A stretch of DNA of 64,000 bases from Sphingomonadaceae bacterium. Its GTDB lineage: Bacteria > Pseudomonadota > Alphaproteobacteria > Sphingomonadales > Sphingomonadaceae. The translations under genes were made by a program, and so were the position numbers. Of the stretch, positions 9,113 to 17,524 are shown piece after piece. Where the stretch lies: the NCBI GenBank assembly GCA_947463325.1, contig CANHQT010000009.1, positions 1 to 64,000 on the forward strand, written 5' to 3'. The notes under the pieces were generated by a model. It was given only the letters and a program-made list of their open reading frames with translations, was not told the DNA's origin and searched no databases. Numbering within the stretch: position 1 is the stretch's first letter; each line of letters begins with the position of its first letter.

Positions 9113-11767
9113 ATGACAACGCGCATGTTGATCGACGCGCGGCACCGGGAGGAAACCCGGGTCGCGGTCATCACGGGAAACCGTATCGAGGAGTTTGATT
9201 TCGAGTCCGCCGAGCACAAGCAGCTCAAAGGCAATATCTATCTGGCGAAAGTAACCCGCGTCGAACCGTCTCTCCAGGCGGCGTTCGTGGAATATGGCGG
9301 CAACCGCCACGGCTTCCTCGCCTTTTCCGAAATCCACCCCGATTATTACCAGATCCCCAAGGAAGATCGCGAAGCCCTGCTGCGTGAGGAGGCTGAAGCC
9401 GCCGCCGCAGAGGCCGCCATGCGCGCCGAAGAGGATATGGACACCCTCGAAGGTGACATTGACGATATGGAACCCCCCGCCGCGCTCGGCGAGGATGGCG
9501 ATGACGGTTACGCCGATAACGACGACGACCATGGCGGCGAAGATGCCGATGAGGGCGCTGACGCCTCGGGTGACGCTGAAACGGGCAATGGCAATCGCGG
9601 CCGCCGCGACCGCGGCCGCAAGCGCGGCCGTGGCCGTTCGCGTGATCGCTCGGACCGCGACGAAGCCGCTGATTTCCGGCGCTCGCTGCACCGCCGCTAC
9701 AAGATTCAGGACGTTATCCGGCGGCGCCAGGTGCTGCTGGTCCAGGTCGTCAAGGAAGAGCGTGGCACCAAGGGCGCAGCGCTGACCACCTATCTCAGCC
9801 TGGCCGGCCGCTATTGCGTGCTGATGCCCAATTCGAGCCATGGTGGCGGCATCAGCCGCAAGATTTCCAATGGTGCCGACCGCAAGCGGCTGAAGAGCGT
9901 TATCGATGAACTGGGCCTGCCGCCCAGCATGGGCTGCATTGTCCGCACGGCAGGGCTGGAACGCACCAAGACCGAGATCAAGCGCGACTTCGACTACCTC
10001 GCCCGCCTGTGGGACGAGATCCGCGAAAAGACGCTGGGCAGCGAAGCGCCCGCCCTGATCCATTCGGACAGCGACCTCATCAAGCGAGCGATCCGCGACA
10101 TCTACAACAGCGGTATCGACGAAGTCGCGGTCGAGGGCGACGAAGGCTATCGAGCGGCCAAGGATTTCATGAAGCTGCTGATGCCGAGCCATGCGCGGCG
10201 CGTGAAGCAATATGCTGATCCGGTGTCACTGTTCCAGCGCTACGGGGTCGAAGATCAGCTCGCGGCAATGTACCAGCCGCTGGTTCCGCTGAAGTCCGGC
10301 GGCTATCTGGTGATCAACCCGACCGAGGCGCTGGTCTCGATCGACATCAACTCCGGCCGCTCGACGCGCGAACATAATATCGAGCAGACGGCGGTGAGCA
10401 CGAACCTCGAAGCCGCCTATGAGATCGCCCGCCAGCTGCGCCTGCGCGATATGGCTGGTCTGGTCGTCATCGACTTCATCGACATGGAATCGGGCAGCAA
10501 TGTCCGCAAGGTCGAACGGGCGATGAAGGACGCGCTCAAGAATGACCGGGCACGGATCCAGGTCGGCCGCATCTCGGGCTTCGGCCTCATGGAGATGAGC
10601 CGCCAGCGTCTGCGCACCGGGGTATTGGAAGCGTCGACCAAGGTCTGCCCGCATTGCGAGGGCACGGGCCTTGTCCGCACCGCATCCTCGGCCGGCCTTA
10701 GCGCCCTGCGCTTGCTCGAAGAAGAAGCCGCCCGTGGCAAGGGTTCGCGCCTTGTGCTGCGCGCCAGCCAGGAAGCGGCCTTCTATGTGCTCAACAACAA
10801 GCGCGCCGAACTGTCGCAGATCGAGCAACGCTATGGCGTCACCATCGAAGTGTTGTCCGACGGCGAAACCGAAGGCGCGCGCATGGCCGTCGAAGCCAGC
10901 GGGCCGCCGCCAGCCAACCTGCCGCGCTTCCTTCCCATCATTGACGAAGATGAGGACGAAGACGCCGCCATCATCGAGGATGGTGACGAGGAAGAAGAGC
11001 GGGAAGCCGACGCACGCGAAGATCGTGGCGAGCGTGGCGAACGCGGTCGGCGTCGCCGGGGTCGCCGTCGGCGCGGTCGCCGCGACGGCGAGCGACGCGA
11101 CGGTGAAGCCGGCGAAACGGACACCGAACGCGCCGAATCCGACGCAGACACAGCCGGTCAGGACGATGACGGTGACGGCGAAGATCGCTCGACTGCCGAC
11201 ACTGCAGGCGACAGCGAGGGTGGCGAAGGCCAGCGTCGCCGTCGGCGCGGCCGCCGTGGTGGTCGCAACCGCTCACGCGGCGATGCTCCGCGCCATGCCG
11301 ATGACGCAGCAGCCGAGAGTGATGCCGCACCGGAAGCAATAGTGGCCGTCGCCGAAGCGTCAGCTGCTGAGCCGGTCGCTGAGGATGCTCCTGCCAAGCC
11401 GAAGCGGACATCGCGCCGCAAGGCCGCTGCCGATCCCGAGCCGGTCGCAGAACAAGCGCCCGCCGCAGAACCGGAAGCTGAAGCCGAAAAGCCGAAGCGG
11501 CGCCGGGCGACAAAGGCGAAGGCCGATGATAGCCCTGCTGCCGAGGCCCCTGTCGAAGAGGCCGCCGTTGAAACGGCGCAGTCCGAGACAGCAGCCAAAC
11601 CGAAGCGCGCTCCGCGCCGCAAGGCCGCTGCCGCTGCAACGGACGCCGAACCGACCAAAAGCTCCGCCAAGGCCTCGGCCGAGGATTTGGCCACCGCCGG
11701 TGATGGTGATGATGCCGGAACCGGCGAGCGCCGGCGCGGCTGGTGGCAGCGCACCTTCGGCGCGTGA
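9113..11767 (+). CDS. rne: Ribonuclease E
   Basis: Endoribonuclease that starts mRNA decay and processes rRNA and tRNA; scaffold of the degradosome. The 884-residue protein begins with the split S1 RNA-binding domain. Between its halves (about residues 95-185) lies a long insert, first acidic (Glu/Asp) and then Arg/Gly-rich, typical of alphaproteobacteria. The catalytic metal residues are D411 (VSIDINSGRS) and D454 (VVIDFIDME), 43 apart as in E. coli D303/D346. The zinc link is C512-PH-C515. The C-terminal 260 residues are disordered: acidic tracts, (RG/RR) blocks, and repeated KPKR-x-xRRKAA segments, ending WWQRTFGA. The start ATG 9113 matches the conserved MTTRMLIDARH opening. The long leader hints at autoregulation. 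Confidence 0.96.
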   Translation: MTTRMLIDARHREETRVAVITGNRIEEFDFESAEHKQLKGNIYLAKVTRVEPSLQAAFVEYGGNRHGFLAFSEIHPDYYQIPKEDREALLREEAEAAAAEAAMRAEEDMDTLEGDIDDMEPPAALGEDGDDGYADNDDDHGGEDADEGADASGDAETGNGNRGRRDRGRKRGRGRSRDRSDRDEAADFRRSLHRRYKIQDVIRRRQVLLVQVVKEERGTKGAALTTYLSLAGRYCVLMPNSSHGGGISRKISNGADRKRLKSVIDELGLPPSMGCIVRTAGLERTKTEIKRDFDYLARLWDEIREKTLGSEAPALIHSDSDLIKRAIRDIYNSGIDEVAVEGDEGYRAAKDFMKLLMPSHARRVKQYADPVSLFQRYGVEDQLAAMYQPLVPLKSGGYLVINPTEALVSIDINSGRSTREHNIEQTAVSTNLEAAYEIARQLRLRDMAGLVVIDFIDMESGSNVRKVERAMKDALKNDRARIQVGRISGFGLMEMSRQRLRTGVLEASTKVCPHCEGTGLVRTASSAGLSALRLLEEEAARGKGSRLVLRASQEAAFYVLNNKRAELSQIEQRYGVTIEVLSDGETEGARMAVEASGPPPANLPRFLPIIDEDEDEDAAIIEDGDEEEEREADAREDRGERGERGRRRRGRRRRGRRDGERRDGEAGETDTERAESDADTAGQDDDGDGEDRSTADTAGDSEGGEGQRRRRRGRRGGRNRSRGDAPRHADDAAAESDAAPEAIVAVAEASAAEPVAEDAPAKPKRTSRRKAAADPEPVAEQAPAAEPEAEAEKPKRRRATKAKADDSPAAEAPVEEAAVETAQSETAAKPKRAPRRKAAAAATDAEPTKSSAKASAEDLATAGDGDDAGTGERRRGWWQRTFGA

Positions 11768-11856
11768 GATGACATGGGCCGCGCGCCGCAAACCCTTCGC
11801 GGGTGGCGCGCGGCTTCATCTTCCGTTCAAGTCCGGACGGAGATAGGCTGGCACCA

Positions 11857-13263
11857 ATGACCGCATCAGCCATCCGCATTCCATCCCTGCTGCACCGGCT
11901 GATCGGTGGGCTGGTGATCCTTGCGGTTTTATCGTCGCTGCTCGCAACGCCGGCCCGCGCCCAATCGATCCTGCGGGATGCGGAAACAGAAGCATTGCTT
12001 CAGGAAATGTCCGCACCGCTCGTGCGCGCATCGGGTCTGCGCCCTGCCGACGTGCGCTTTGTGCTGGTCGGCAGCCGCAGCATCAACGCCTTCGTCGCTG
12101 GCGGCCAAATTGTTTATATCCACGCTGGCCTCATCGAAAATGCCGACAATGCCAATCAGGTCCAGGGGGTGATCGCGCATGAGCTCGGCCATGTCGCCGG
12201 CGGGCATGTGGTCAACACCACGGGTCAGGAACGCGCGACCAACATCGCGCTTCTCTCGCTGCTGCTCGGTGCGGCGGCAATGGCTGCCGGCGCGGGAGAG
12301 GCTGGAATGGGCATATTGTCCGCCGGCCAGCAGGCCGCGCTCGGCAGCTATCTGGCCTACAGCCGCGTCCAGGAATCGACCGCCGATGCCGCCGCTGCCC
12401 GTTATCTGTCGGCAGCCGGCATCTCTGGCAGGGGTTTTGTCGACTTCTTCTTGAAGCTTCAGAACCTCGAATTCCGCTATGCCATCCCGCAGGATGACGA
12501 ACAGCAATATGGCCGCACCCATCCGCTCTCGGGCGACCGGGTCCGTTTCTTACGTGACGCGCTGTCCGCAGACCCTGCCTGGGATCGCCCGAATGACCCC
12601 GCGCTTGAGGCCCGCTTCGAGCGGGTGAAGGCCAAGCTCGTCGGCTTTCTGCAGGAACCGGCACAAACACTGCGCCAGTTCCCGGCGAGCGATACATCGG
12701 TCGGCGCGCGCTACGCCCGCGCCTACGCCTGGCACAAGGATGCGCACCCGGAACGCGCGCTTGCGGAGGTGGAAGCGCTGCTCGCAACCGCGCCGGACGA
12801 CCCCTATTTCCTTGAGTTAAAGGGCCAGATCCTGCTCGAATCCGGGCGCCCGCGCGAAGCGCTGCCCCCGCTCCGTCAGGCGGTACAGGCCACCGGTGCC
12901 GAACCGCTGATCGCCGCCTTGTTCGGCCATGCACTCATCGCGACCGAGGATCCGGCCAATTATGCCGAGGCCGAAAGCGTGCTGCGCGCTGCCGTCAATC
13001 GCGACAATGTGAACCCCTTCGCCTGGTATCAGCTCGGCGTCGTCTATGCCCACAATGGCGATGAGGCGCGCGCATCGCTGGCGACTGCGGAGCGTTATGT
13101 GCTGACAGGCCAAGCGGGACTGGCGCTCGCCAGCGCAGAAAATGCCATGGGCGGCCTATCCCAAGGCACGCCGGACTGGCTGCGCGCTCAGGATATCGCG
13201 TTGGTCGCGCGTGCACGCTTGGAGGAGGAGCGCAGGCGCGGTAGAGGGAACAGCCGAGGCTGA
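11857..13263 (+). CDS. M48 family periplasmic metalloprotease with TPR repeats (BepA-like)
   Basis: A 468-residue exported protease. ATG 11857 gives a signal peptide ending in ATPARAQS (cut about residue 35). The peptidase domain has zinc motif H108-ELGH-112 and the downstream glutamate in QESTADAAAARYL. From about residue 285 the protein is helical with TPR-like repeats, for example YFLELKGQILLESGRPREAL and NPFAWYQLGVVYAHNGDEA. This is the architecture of BepA/YfgC, which helps assemble or clears misfolded outer-membrane proteins such as LptD. It precedes the DsbA-like gene by 57 bp on the same strand; BepA action on LptD is linked to disulfide formation, so the pairing makes sense (inference). 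Confidence 0.88.
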   Translation: MTASAIRIPSLLHRLIGGLVILAVLSSLLATPARAQSILRDAETEALLQEMSAPLVRASGLRPADVRFVLVGSRSINAFVAGGQIVYIHAGLIENADNANQVQGVIAHELGHVAGGHVVNTTGQERATNIALLSLLLGAAAMAAGAGEAGMGILSAGQQAALGSYLAYSRVQESTADAAAARYLSAAGISGRGFVDFFLKLQNLEFRYAIPQDDEQQYGRTHPLSGDRVRFLRDALSADPAWDRPNDPALEARFERVKAKLVGFLQEPAQTLRQFPASDTSVGARYARAYAWHKDAHPERALAEVEALLATAPDDPYFLELKGQILLESGRPREALPPLRQAVQATGAEPLIAALFGHALIATEDPANYAEAESVLRAAVNRDNVNPFAWYQLGVVYAHNGDEARASLATAERYVLTGQAGLALASAENAMGGLSQGTPDWLRAQDIALVARARLEEERRRGRGNSRG

Positions 13264-13320
13264 CCATCGCTTGCCAAGCGCGGCAAAAAGACGGCGCCCA
13301 GCTGCACCAACGGGGAACGC

Positions 13321-15000
13321 ATGACTGACAAGCGTGGCACCGGCGATCCCGCCGGCGGATCTGATCTTCCCGATCGTGGGGACCATTATCAGCCATGGCT
13401 TCGCAACCAGGCTGCCCCTGGTGAGCCCGCGCGCCCGGAGCCTTTGGCGACCCGTCCAGTGGCGGGTGCCCAAGCCCCGGAGCCGCCGGCTGACACCGCC
13501 CACGCGCGGGACATGTCGGCAGATGATCTGCTGGCCCGGCCCATTGCCCGACCCGCCGAAAGCGAGCGCACCGCGCCCGCCGTCACGGCTCAACTTGCAG
13601 AGGGCGCGAGAGCGACCCTCGACTGGATCGGACGGGTCAACCGGCAGATCGACCTTCCCCGACGGATAGAGGCGCTGGAATTGCCGCGCCGCAGCCGCGC
13701 CCTTGGCGCATGGCTAGGCCGGATGAGCCGGAAGACCGCTGATAAAGTGGCGCACACCACACGGTCCGGCATTGATGCCGCCGCCCCGCGCCTCGAACAG
13801 GCGTCGCGCGCGGCACAGGATGCATTGGCCAAAGGCGCCAGCCGCACAAAAGCAGGCATCGACAGCGGGGCGAGCAAGATCGGCAAGGCCACGCGCACCT
13901 TGATCGCATCCGCCCCCCTGCCGTCTCGCGACACCAAGGCCGAAGCACCCGAATCCCAGCTCGACCGGTTGCTGGCCGAAAGTGAACCGGCCACGCAGCC
14001 GCAAAGCCCGACACGGACGGAGGGGCTACCTCTGTTTGCTCCGGCACCGGCAGCCGAAGCGCCGCCCGCTGCCGCCACAGACAGCGATGTGCCACCAATT
14101 CCGGCCCCGGCTGCCGCCGCAGCGCAACCCATGGACACTCCAGCCCCTGCGCAACCGGCTCCGACCCCGCCACCTGCTGCCATGCCACAGCCGGCTGCGG
14201 CCGGTGACGAGCCAGCAGCTCCGGCCCCACCCAATGCCGGTTATCGCGCCTCCCCGCCCGCTGCTTCGGACGGCGGCAGGCCATGGCATCGTCATCCGGG
14301 CACGCTTGCCTTGGGCGGCGCGCTGCTGCTCGCATCTGGTTTTGCCGCCGGCCTTTACTGGACCGGTCCGGGCGTTGACCGGGCGACGACAGAGCGGGTG
14401 ATCCGCGATTATCTTCTCAACAATCCCGAAATCCTGCCGCAGGCCATGGAGCGGCTGGAACGCACCCGGATCGCCGAAACTGTCGAGCGTAATCGCGAGC
14501 GTATTGAGCGCCCCTTCTCCGGCGCATGGGCAGGCGCGGCAGACGGGAATGTGACCATGACCGTCTTCACCGACTATGCCTGCACCTTCTGCCGCGCGAG
14601 CCTCGCCGACGTCGATCGGCTGCTGCGTGAGGATCGCAACCTCAAGGTCGTATTCCGCGAACTGCCGATAATCTCGCCCGACAGCGAGCCGGCGGCACGG
14701 TTGGCGCTCGCCGCGGCGAGGCGCGGGCGCTATATGCCGATGCACCGCGCCCTGTTCGAAACCGGCACGCCAGACGCCAATGCGCGCCGTGATGCCGCGG
14801 TCAATCTCGATGTCGCCAATGACAGCGCAGCGCTCGGCGATGCGGCCATCACGCGGGAGCTTGAAAGCAATATCGCGCTGGCCCGCGATCTCGGCGTCAA
14901 TGGAACGCCGAGCTGGGTGATCGGTGACCGGATGCTGACCGGCGCGGTTGGGTATGACCAGTTGCGTGCAGCGATCAGCGCGGCGCGCTCAGCACAATAG
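13321..15000 (+). CDS. DsbA-family thioredoxin-fold protein with long N-terminal extension
   Basis: A 559-residue protein, about twice the usual size of this family. Residues 1-325 are predicted cytoplasmic: a Pro/Ala-rich start, a helical stretch of about 85-200 with Arg and Lys, then a Pro/Ala-rich linker (about 225-320). One membrane helix follows (about 327-347). The periplasmic part has the DsbA/Com1-like module: a helix with YLLNNPEILPQAMERLE, then VFTDYA-C421-TF-C424 as redox motif, and VNGTPSWVIG with the cis-proline. The catalytic part probably forms or isomerises disulfides in envelope proteins. The start ATG 13321 follows a GGGGAA site; shorter starts would remove part of the extension. 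It follows the M48 protease gene. Confidence 0.85.
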   Translation: MTDKRGTGDPAGGSDLPDRGDHYQPWLRNQAAPGEPARPEPLATRPVAGAQAPEPPADTAHARDMSADDLLARPIARPAESERTAPAVTAQLAEGARATLDWIGRVNRQIDLPRRIEALELPRRSRALGAWLGRMSRKTADKVAHTTRSGIDAAAPRLEQASRAAQDALAKGASRTKAGIDSGASKIGKATRTLIASAPLPSRDTKAEAPESQLDRLLAESEPATQPQSPTRTEGLPLFAPAPAAEAPPAAATDSDVPPIPAPAAAAAQPMDTPAPAQPAPTPPPAAMPQPAAAGDEPAAPAPPNAGYRASPPAASDGGRPWHRHPGTLALGGALLLASGFAAGLYWTGPGVDRATTERVIRDYLLNNPEILPQAMERLERTRIAETVERNRERIERPFSGAWAGAADGNVTMTVFTDYACTFCRASLADVDRLLREDRNLKVVFRELPIISPDSEPAARLALAAARRGRYMPMHRALFETGTPDANARRDAAVNLDVANDSAALGDAAITRELESNIALARDLGVNGTPSWVIGDRMLTGAVGYDQLRAAISAARSAQ

Positions 15001-15007
15001 GCCCCGA

Positions 15008-15667
15008 CTACTTCCGGCCCTGAGCCACCACGAACAATTCCGGGCTGCCTTTGCGGCTTGATGGCGGCTTGACGTGTTTGACCGTCGCAAACGCCTGCTT
15101 CAGCCGGACAAGCAGATCACGGTCAGTGCCGCCCTGGAATACCTTGGCGACGAAACTGCCTCCGGGTGCCAGCACCTCGATCGCGAATTCCGCTGCCGCC
15201 TCCGCCAGCGCGAGCGTTCGCAAATGGTCAGTCTGGGGATGGCCGACAGTGTTGGCCGCCATGTCGGACATGACGAGATCGGGTGCGCGGCCGCCCAATG
15301 CCTCCATCAGCAATGCCGGTGCCTCATCCGCCATGAAATCCATCTGCAGGATGGTAACGCCCTCGATCGGATCGACCGGCAACAGGTCGATGCCGGCGAT
15401 GGCAGCAGCCGGCACCTTGCGCCGCACCACTTGCGCCCAGCCGCCGGGTGCGATGCCAAGATCCACCACCGCCCGCACACCCTTTAGGATGCCGGTCTTC
15501 TCGTCGATCTCGATCAGCTTATAGGCGGCGCGGCTGCGATAGCCCTCGGCCTTTGCGCGCTTCACATAGGGATCGTTGAGCTGCCGCGCGAGCCAGCGCG
15601 TCGATTGCGCGCTTCGGTTGCGCGCCGTCTTGACGCGGACATGCCCGCCGCCGCGTCCGCTCGTCAT
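15008..15667 (-). CDS. rlmE: 23S rRNA (uridine-2'-O)-methyltransferase
   Basis: RlmE (FtsJ/RrmJ) methylates the 2'-hydroxyl of U2552 in the A loop of 23S rRNA, a late step of 50S assembly. The 219-residue protein has the K-D-K-E tetrad: K50 (RAAYKL), D135 (SDMAANTVGHPQTDH), K175 (FVAKVFQGG) and E210 (SPELFVVA). The SAM-binding motif is DLGIAPGGWAQV (69-80). The first 25 residues form a basic tail that likely contacts RNA. Its ATG overlaps the end of the Ppx/GppA gene by 4 bp, so the two are translationally coupled. Confidence 0.95.
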   Translation of the reverse strand: MTSGRGGGHVRVKTARNRSAQSTRWLARQLNDPYVKRAKAEGYRSRAAYKLIEIDEKTGILKGVRAVVDLGIAPGGWAQVVRRKVPAAAIAGIDLLPVDPIEGVTILQMDFMADEAPALLMEALGGRAPDLVMSDMAANTVGHPQTDHLRTLALAEAAAEFAIEVLAPGGSFVAKVFQGGTDRDLLVRLKQAFATVKHVKPPSSRKGSPELFVVAQGRK

Positions 15668-16954: not shown

Positions 16955-17386
16955 TTAACGGCGGCAGCGGTCATCACTGCGGTCGATGGCGCGGCCTGCC
17001 AGAGCGCCAACGGCCCCGCCGATGATGGCACCAGCTGTCCGGTCACCCCGGCGTCCGGCGATCTCGCGACCAGCCAATCCACCGGCAATCGCGCCAATGA
17101 TGGTGCCGCCCGAGCCATTGTCGCAGCGGTTGCGGTAATAGCGGTCGTCGTAGCGGTTGTCGTAGCGGCGGTCATCGTAGCGCCGGTCATAACGGCGGTC
17201 CTGGCGACGGTCATATCGGCGGTCGTAGCGCCGGTCCGCGCGCCGGTCGTACCGGCGATCATAGCGGCTGTCCTGATGCTCATAATAGCCGTCGCCATAA
17301 TCATAATATTGGGCGGCAGCCGGAACGGCGCCAAAACTGGTGAGCGCAGCAGCCGCAGTGGCGAGGGCCAGCATGGTCTTGTTCAT
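16955..17386 (-). CDS. Secreted glycine-zipper 2TM protein with Arg/Tyr/Asp repeats
   Basis: A 143-residue exported protein. ATG 17386, behind a strong GAAGGAG site, gives a signal peptide ending VPAAAQ (cut about residue 26). Residues 45-95 are a run of RYDRR, DRRYD and YDNRYD repeats. The C-terminal part has two glycine-zipper helices, GTIIGAIAGGLAGREIAG and TAGAIIGGAVGALAGRAI, the 2TM pattern of outer-membrane-associated proteins such as SlyB and Rickettsia 17-kDa antigen. The 2TM region probably inserts in or spans an envelope membrane. Function is unknown. Confidence 0.85.
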   Translation of the reverse strand: MNKTMLALATAAAALTSFGAVPAAAQYYDYGDGYYEHQDSRYDRRYDRRADRRYDRRYDRRQDRRYDRRYDDRRYDNRYDDRYYRNRCDNGSGGTIIGAIAGGLAGREIAGRRGDRTAGAIIGGAVGALAGRAIDRSDDRCRR

Positions 17387-17524
17387 GAGTCGTCTCCTTC
17401 GTCTCAGGGCCGTTGCTCCCGATGACGATGGTCTAGGTGATTCGGGCTGATCGCATCCTGAATGAGATTGTTGCCTGCCGTTCAGCTTGCGGCGCTCCAT
17501 CCGCCTGCCTATCGCCACAGGGCC

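Follow-up and report, generated by a model that had tools for sequence, protein, structure and literature searches.

A membrane-tethered DsbA/ScsC-like oxidoreductase with selectively constrained motifs in a long N-terminal extension in one genus of the Sphingomonadaceae

The characterised DsbA- and ScsC-type enzymes compared here act in the periplasm. The DNA stretch analysed (hereafter the window; 64,000 nucleotides of contig CANHQT010000009.1 from a Sphingomonadaceae genome) encodes a relative of these enzymes in which some 326 residues precede a membrane helix, and this raises the questions of whether so long an N-terminal part is translated, whether it is maintained by selection, and what it could do on the other side of the membrane from the catalytic domain. 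A literature search for a DsbA with a cytoplasmic extension in Sphingomonas-like bacteria, or for this operon, returned nothing relevant among the records listed. Here we address these questions computationally.

Architecture of the extended protein

The reading frame at 13321–15000 (+ strand) is open from an ATG over 559 amino acids and encodes a membrane-tethered DsbA/ScsC-like oxidoreductase. It begins 57 nt after the stop codon of an upstream M48 metalloprotease gene and is preceded by a probable ribosome-binding site, GGGGA, at 13312–13316 (+). The sole strong hydrophobic stretch of the protein is a single transmembrane helix at residues 327–347 (14299–14361, +), assigned from hydrophobicity and predicted structure; the best 19-residue Kyte-Doolittle mean, 1.64, is found at residue 327, and the highest window start within residues 1–300 reaches only 0.64. 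A membrane helix in this position does not resemble a normal signal peptide, although the chain may still be cleaved behind the helix. The single helix and the basic residues before it point to an N-in/C-out topology, which would place the extension in the cytoplasm and the catalytic domain in the periplasm.

Behind the membrane helix lies an ScsC_N-type helical segment at residues 358–381 (14392–14463, +; PF18312, E 3.9e-9, 36.5 bits against a cut-off of 25.8), equivalent to the trimerisation region described for trimeric ScsC proteins (PMC8900818, PMC5524982). It is followed by a DsbA-type thioredoxin domain at residues 402–553 (14524–14979, +), identified by Pfam, PDB sequence matches and fold. 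Membership of the DsbA family is supported by the Pfam DSBA match at 414–552 (E 5.5e-17; 62.6 bits against a cut-off of 25.6), and Thioredoxin_4 matches across 402–553. The CTFC active site at residues 421–424 (14581–14592, +) holds the only cysteines of the protein, and Thr529-Pro530 (14905–14910, +) is read as the Thr-cis-Pro loop, its cis configuration being taken from the fold. A CXXC motif and a Thr-Pro pair are present in all 37 extended proteins aligned (CGFC in 29, CTFC in four and CGYC in four). The initial annotation had described a DsbA-like protein at 13321–15000 with a membrane helix at about 327–347 ahead of a CTFC domain, and Pfam and hydrophobicity confirm both the coordinates and the anatomy.

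Its description of a Pro/Ala-rich region with an Arg/Lys-rich helical part is likewise borne out by composition. The linker immediately before the membrane helix (residues 242–326; 14044–14298, +) is rich in proline and alanine (30% and 31%, respectively, over 246–326), and an amphipathic Ala/Arg/Lys-rich region occupies residues 126–200 (13696–13920, +), for which helix is predicted at low confidence. Low-confidence helices are predicted at 87–131, 137–172 and 177–196, and the net charge over residues 98–200 is +11. In the full-length AlphaFold model (3 sequences), ten-residue mean pLDDT values are 67–89 over the catalytic domain, except at 481–500 (44 and 52), and fall below 50 across residues 1–370. 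A model of residues 84–244 alone gave a mean pLDDT of 48.3 and a pTM of 0.22, with ten-residue means of 56 or less. On these models, the extension is a low-confidence region that is probably disordered.

Distribution, conservation and translation of the extension

The initial annotation regarded the length of this protein as unusual for its family, and the comparison of orthologue lengths and extensions that it called for shows this to be true outside the genus of the window (g1) and not within it, where the long form is the rule. With the window's own genome included, 59 of the 60 genus genomes searched carry the long form, which is every genome with a match; the remaining one, G009, is 88% complete and in 550 contigs. 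The alignment begins at or before residue 20 in 56 of the 59, and the other three are also extended: the protein of G046 (L193) is longer and has the same motifs, the extended gene of G031 is split over contig ends, and the contig of G021 (L196) begins inside the extension, the later part of which is visible. A match is present in 147 of 149 family genomes (none in G076 and G081). The family loci examined outside the genus number 143, excluding the genomes without a match and G192, which has a weak match only; 135 of them are short, seven are long (L039, L040, L046, L052, L061, L080 and L085) and one (L048) is ended by the end of its contig and stands outside the short and long counts. Four loci (L084, L110, L153 and L189), for which the computed M48 stop was misplaced, were classed as short by their own reading frames. 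The long form is a trait of the genus and is rare elsewhere in the family. At L045 (G094), the frame of a short-form DsbA ends after 143 codons, soon past its CGYC motif, as a broken gene, a frameshift or an assembly error would produce.

A profile of the extension matched 13 of 246 genomes of the order, once each and in two of 71 genera, and at all 13 loci a CXXC domain follows the extension in the same frame; across 385 genomes of the class, the own genome alone matched. No stand-alone homologue was detected among the candidates scored (up to 11 per genome in the order and up to seven in the class), a depth at which distant copies may escape. One apparent stand-alone copy, G031:C17, proved to be the same gene interrupted at a contig end.

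On a tree of the catalytic domain (quick search, LG+G4), the extension label changes five times over 175 labelled rows, and well supported branches force only two of these changes. The genus and the sister group g44 form one group, all of it extended, with an SH-aLRT of 94, and the genus alone has a support of 0; g12, g30, g75 and g84, which also contain extended proteins, are placed elsewhere. A profile built from the genus only picks up the two g44 extensions (E 3e-29 and 3e-23) and, weakly, one of the two g75 proteins (E 7e-5); it does not recognise the extensions of g12, g30 or g84 (the best of 160 shuffled controls scored E 4.2). As the long extensions of these last three groups are missed by the genus profile, these data suggest that N-terminal growth occurred more than once. 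Inspection by eye finds PLF-type motifs in the g30, g75 and g84 extensions. In L039 (G070, g12), whose long extension is among those missed, an extra hydrophobic segment precedes the DsbA domain, also by eye.

Alignment of 36 extensions (32 from the genus, two from g44 and two from g75) reveals four conserved islands; L039 was left out of the conservation count, and L031 was dropped as a duplicate of L003. Island A, at residues 21–28 (13381–13404, +), reads DHYQPWLR in the window and DYYQPWLR in the genus consensus, and a back-translation of YQPWL occurs once in the own genome. Island B, at residues 98–125 (13612–13695, +), has the motif DIPxRVExxEIPRR and contains, in DLPRRIEALELPRR, two elements of the form [DE][IL]P[AR]R at a spacing of nine residues; it terminates in ADIPARVEAMEIPRR. 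Island C, at residues 209–221 (13945–13983, +), reads APESQLDRLLAES (consensus PPSGLEQLLARE) and has the motif SxLxxLLxxE, with the consensus stretch SGLEQLLARE. Island D, at residues 235–240 (14023–14040, +), is GLPLFA, with the consensus DLPLFA. Pro25, Asp111, Arg115, Ser212, Leu214, Leu217 and the LPLF of residues 236–239 are invariant in all 36 extensions. The extension of the window's protein has no match in Pfam, the extension profile has none in the PDB, and a Pfam search with all 36 extensions returned five families, each matching weakly in one to three members (best E 0.017). The beta-clamp consensus is QL[SD]LF, and a beta-clamp-like role for LPLF was set aside, the first position not being Q in the aligned rows inspected. 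The arm of the window's protein contains no cysteine, which rules out a thiol relay through it; a cysteine is present in the extension of two of the 37 extended proteins (L010 and L017).

The strength of selection was estimated as dN/dS by the Nei-Gojobori method, pooled over 14 disjoint pairs of close species, with 95% ranges obtained by resampling pairs. One genus row is unpaired, and the pairs exclude L001–L003, the window's own subgroup, as too diverged. The islands gave values of 0.059 for A (residues 21–31; 95% 0.018–0.110), 0.102 for B (0.056–0.167), 0.046 for C (residues 209–222; 0.019–0.082) and 0.065 for D (residues 233–241; 0.022–0.129), each from only 126–392 codon comparisons. Their ranges overlap that of the catalytic domain (0.075; 0.050–0.097) and lie below those of the Pro/Ala-rich linker (0.323; 0.260–0.397) and the membrane helix (0.294; 0.224–0.381); the amphipathic region at 126–200 is intermediate, at 0.202. 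The lineage of the window itself shows clear constraint on island A and weak constraint on island B: when the window's protein (L001) is compared with L002, its nearest relative, 10 of 11 residues are identical in island A, 11 of 28 in B, 9 of 14 in C and 5 of 9 in D, with 149 of 207 identical in the catalytic domain.

These values bear on the proposal that the arm is a largely tolerated, drifting spacer, produced by growth of the reading frame into the interval between the M48 and dsbA genes. The relaxed linker, the poor match of the window's island B to that of L002, and the repeated growth suggested by the unrecognised g12, g30 and g84 extensions would all be expected of such a spacer. Against it stand the constraint on the islands, which between close species resembles that on the catalytic domain, and the recognisable extension of g44; we consider a mere spacer improbable.

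Selection at the protein level also bears on whether the extension is translated at all. The start codon is GTG in 29 of 32 genus members and ATG in three, and a stop codon stands immediately 5' of the GTG in six of the 32. A G-rich stretch precedes this distal start in 31 of the 32 members; the ribosome-binding-site position reads AGGGC in 28, is a run of G in L002 and AAGGA in L003, and differs in L013. The initial annotation had raised the prospect of an internal start near the membrane helix, with translation beginning just before it. An ATG does occur at residue 288 of the window's protein; by eye, however, no convincing ribosome-binding site precedes codon 257, 271, 288 or 331, and the islands are under protein-level selection throughout; an internal start is rejected. 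Given this selection, the G-rich stretch before the distal start and a GTG that directly follows a stop codon in six of 32 members, an untranslated extension is very unlikely, to the point that we give it hardly any credence.

Catalytic type and redox partners

The nearest PDB entries by sequence are 7rgv (2e-28), 3gyk (1.7e-26), 6mhh (5e-22) and 4xvw (2e-21). By fold they are 3gyk (Z 23.5, rmsd 2.1 over 168 aligned residues), 7rgv (Z 22.3, 5.4 over 211) and 6eez (Z 22.3, 2.4 over 178), the scores of which lie within about 1.2 Z of one another; monomeric Salmonella ScsC (4gxz) follows with a Z of 22.1 (rmsd 2.5 over 165). The ScsC of Proteus (PmScsC) is also among the nearest solved structures. 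Judged by sequence and by the modelled fold, the catalytic part is nearest to the ScsC/alpha-DsbA2 proteins, most of which are trimeric isomerases, with the qualification that 3gyk and the monomeric 4gxz score alike in fold. NCBIfam does not name the protein, as its match to NF041057 (49.6 bits) is below the cut-off of 190.

The ScsC proteins of this group are reported to differ in activity. CcScsC and PmScsC are trimeric isomerases joined by N-terminal helices and ScsB keeps ScsC reduced, and the Salmonella protein is a monomer that is neither an oxidase nor an isomerase (PMC8900818). The best sequence match, the ScsC of Caulobacter crescentus (7rgv), shares the N-terminal helical segment, the CXXC motif and the Thr-cis-Pro loop with the window's protein; it is described as periplasmic, with a signal sequence and ScsB as its reductant (PMC8900818), whereas the domain encoded in the window follows a transmembrane helix and about 326 residues, with no DsbD_TM homologue detected in its genome. 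The alpha-DsbA2 of Wolbachia pipientis (6eez) is also a DsbA-like protein with additional N-terminal residues, and is reported to be trimeric; the source describes only about 50 such residues and, in the parts that bear on this protein, no long cytoplasmic arm (PMC6450060). The Silicibacter pomeroyi thioredoxin-like oxidoreductase (3gyk) has the top fold score, but its solved chain of 175 residues comprises the catalytic domain only. The nearest named record is a short form, from Sphingomonas sp. AX6, with 44% identity. Short orthologues of other genera in the family (for example L032, Sphingomonas sp. AX6) have the same domain at the equivalent position behind the M48 gene, and where the M48 stop is correctly placed, about 20–82 codons separate that stop from the domain, compared with at least 330 in the long form. 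Since 135 of 143 family orthologues have no arm, the core reaction can proceed without one.

The own genome (2.29 Mb in 57 contigs, 99.99% complete) encodes DsbB. A search of this one genome with DsbD_TM (PF02683, covering DsbD, ScsB and CcdA) gave no match, while 10 of 14 control genomes matched; with no ScsB partner of the DsbD superfamily detected, the protein is not assigned to an ScsB-ScsC system. Thioredoxin_4 is found at three places in the genome. The two besides the window's protein are DsbA-like matches that stand side by side on contig 1 (L197/L198, G000:C1:185998-187328), in stretches that also hold mutY-like and SMC-like reading frames, as named by eye.

An isomerase in this genome would lack the usual reductant, as no DsbD or ScsB was detected, and the enzyme may be either an isomerase with no known reductant or a DsbB-linked oxidase. 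The latter would be an ordinary thiol oxidase coupled to DsbB, with an ScsC_N-like segment that does not trimerise and an arm that serves as a minor localisation tag. The presence of DsbB with no detected DsbD_TM homologue fits this account, as does the report that PmScsC, once deprived of its trimerisation part, turns from an isomerase into an oxidase (PMC5524982). On the other hand, trimeric isomerases make up the majority of the closest relatives that have been characterised, and the two further DsbA-like genes could serve DsbB. Wolbachia wMel resembles the own genome in having a DsbB and no obvious DsbD, and its alpha-DsbA2 is nevertheless reported to be a trimeric isomerase that does not interact with its DsbB (PMC6450060). 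An ordinary oxidase is a substantial possibility, although not the one that we favour; it concerns the catalytic role and is compatible with docking of the arm.

Possible roles of the arm at this locus

Taken together, these results lead us to a reading to which we assign a probability of roughly 0.6. In it, the protein is an enzyme of the ScsC/alpha-DsbA2 type that is tethered to the membrane and is probably a trimer, and its arms reach into the cytoplasm and dock there to at least one partner. The periplasmic thioredoxin domain, behind its ScsC_N helix and on a single membrane helix, would probably form a trimer at the inner membrane. The cytoplasmic N-terminus, grown to about 320 residues in the genus and its sister group g44, would present the four islands, short and constrained, on an Ala/Pro-rich arm that is partly helical and modelled at low confidence, and the islands would most likely bind the partner or partners. 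If the enzyme is a trimer, its three arms may bind together and so hold it at the sites of emergence or assembly of its periplasmic substrates. The weakness of island B in the lineage of the window does not shift our estimate, because it leaves islands A, C and D, and the result for the genus as a whole, intact. A link to a cytoplasmic partner had been proposed in the initial annotation and is partly supported: the conserved islands (dN/dS of 0.05–0.10) and a GTG after a stop codon in 6/32 favour a genuine extension that is translated and has a function, and docking is the most likely reading of the constrained motifs, but no partner was found.

The charge of the arm invites a different explanation, in which it binds the membrane surface or itself and its helices at 87–196 lie on the inner leaflet, clustering or positioning the enzyme. 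Amphipathic moments of up to about 0.6, the net charge of +11 over 98–200 and weak matches to the Senescence domain in three of the 36 extensions (best E 0.017) are consistent with such binding. The arm helices have a low mean hydrophobicity, however, and the amphipathic region is less constrained (0.202) than the islands (0.046–0.102), and we judge this explanation unlikely.

Docking to a cytoplasmic partner, our preferred reading, may be narrowed by the gene neighbourhood. The M48 metalloprotease gene (11803–13263, +), whose product has TPRs and is BepA-like, lies upstream on the same strand at all 32 aligned genus loci and at 142 of 143 other family loci. Its product scores 134.8 bits against NCBIfam M48_BAM_BepA, below the cut-off of 570, and it may work like BepA. 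The distance from the M48 stop to the dsbA start, usually 53–74 nt, was computed as 322 and 297 nt in L013 and L028, respectively, owing to extra sequence or a misplaced stop. Upstream of the M48 frame, at a distance of 35 nt, is the gene for RNase E (9113–11767, +), and a gene for an FtsJ-family methyltransferase, whose size and family make it RlmE-like, converges on the dsbA gene from the other side (15008–15667, −). A division or cell-wall complex had been suggested as an example of such a partner, and nothing points there; the RNase E, BepA-like and FtsJ-family neighbours would instead suggest a connection with RNA metabolism or with the quality control of outer-membrane proteins.

BepA of E. 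coli is reported to promote the maturation of LptD, which involves disulfide rearrangement (PMC8423444). The own genome encodes an LptD with three cysteines in an open frame, which makes LptD a candidate substrate and no more; the tethered enzyme and the BepA-like protease could act jointly on outer-membrane proteins of this kind. More speculatively, the protein might be a lineage-specific transmembrane adaptor, a trimeric isomerase with three arms of four docking motifs each that couples a cytoplasmic machine to disulfide editing of outer-membrane proteins that the BepA-like protease handles. We hold this only tentatively, and the candidates for the machine, the RNase E/RNA-degradation machinery or the translation/secretion apparatus, are drawn from the neighbourhood alone. 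If the adaptor reading is true, the arm is a new, uncharacterised protein region. Selection on the islands close to that on the active domain between close species suggests that one genus places or controls its disulfide handling from the cytoplasmic side. Pull-downs and point mutants can be aimed at four defined islands, with the short-form relatives as natural controls.

Two further features of the neighbourhood were observed. The RNase E carries a long low-complexity insert, acidic and then Arg-rich, at approximately residues 95–190, before its RNase_E_G domain. The product of the reading frame at 16955–17518 (−) is small, has a glycine-rich C-terminus and is densely packed with Arg/Asp/Tyr repeats (RYDRRYDRR).
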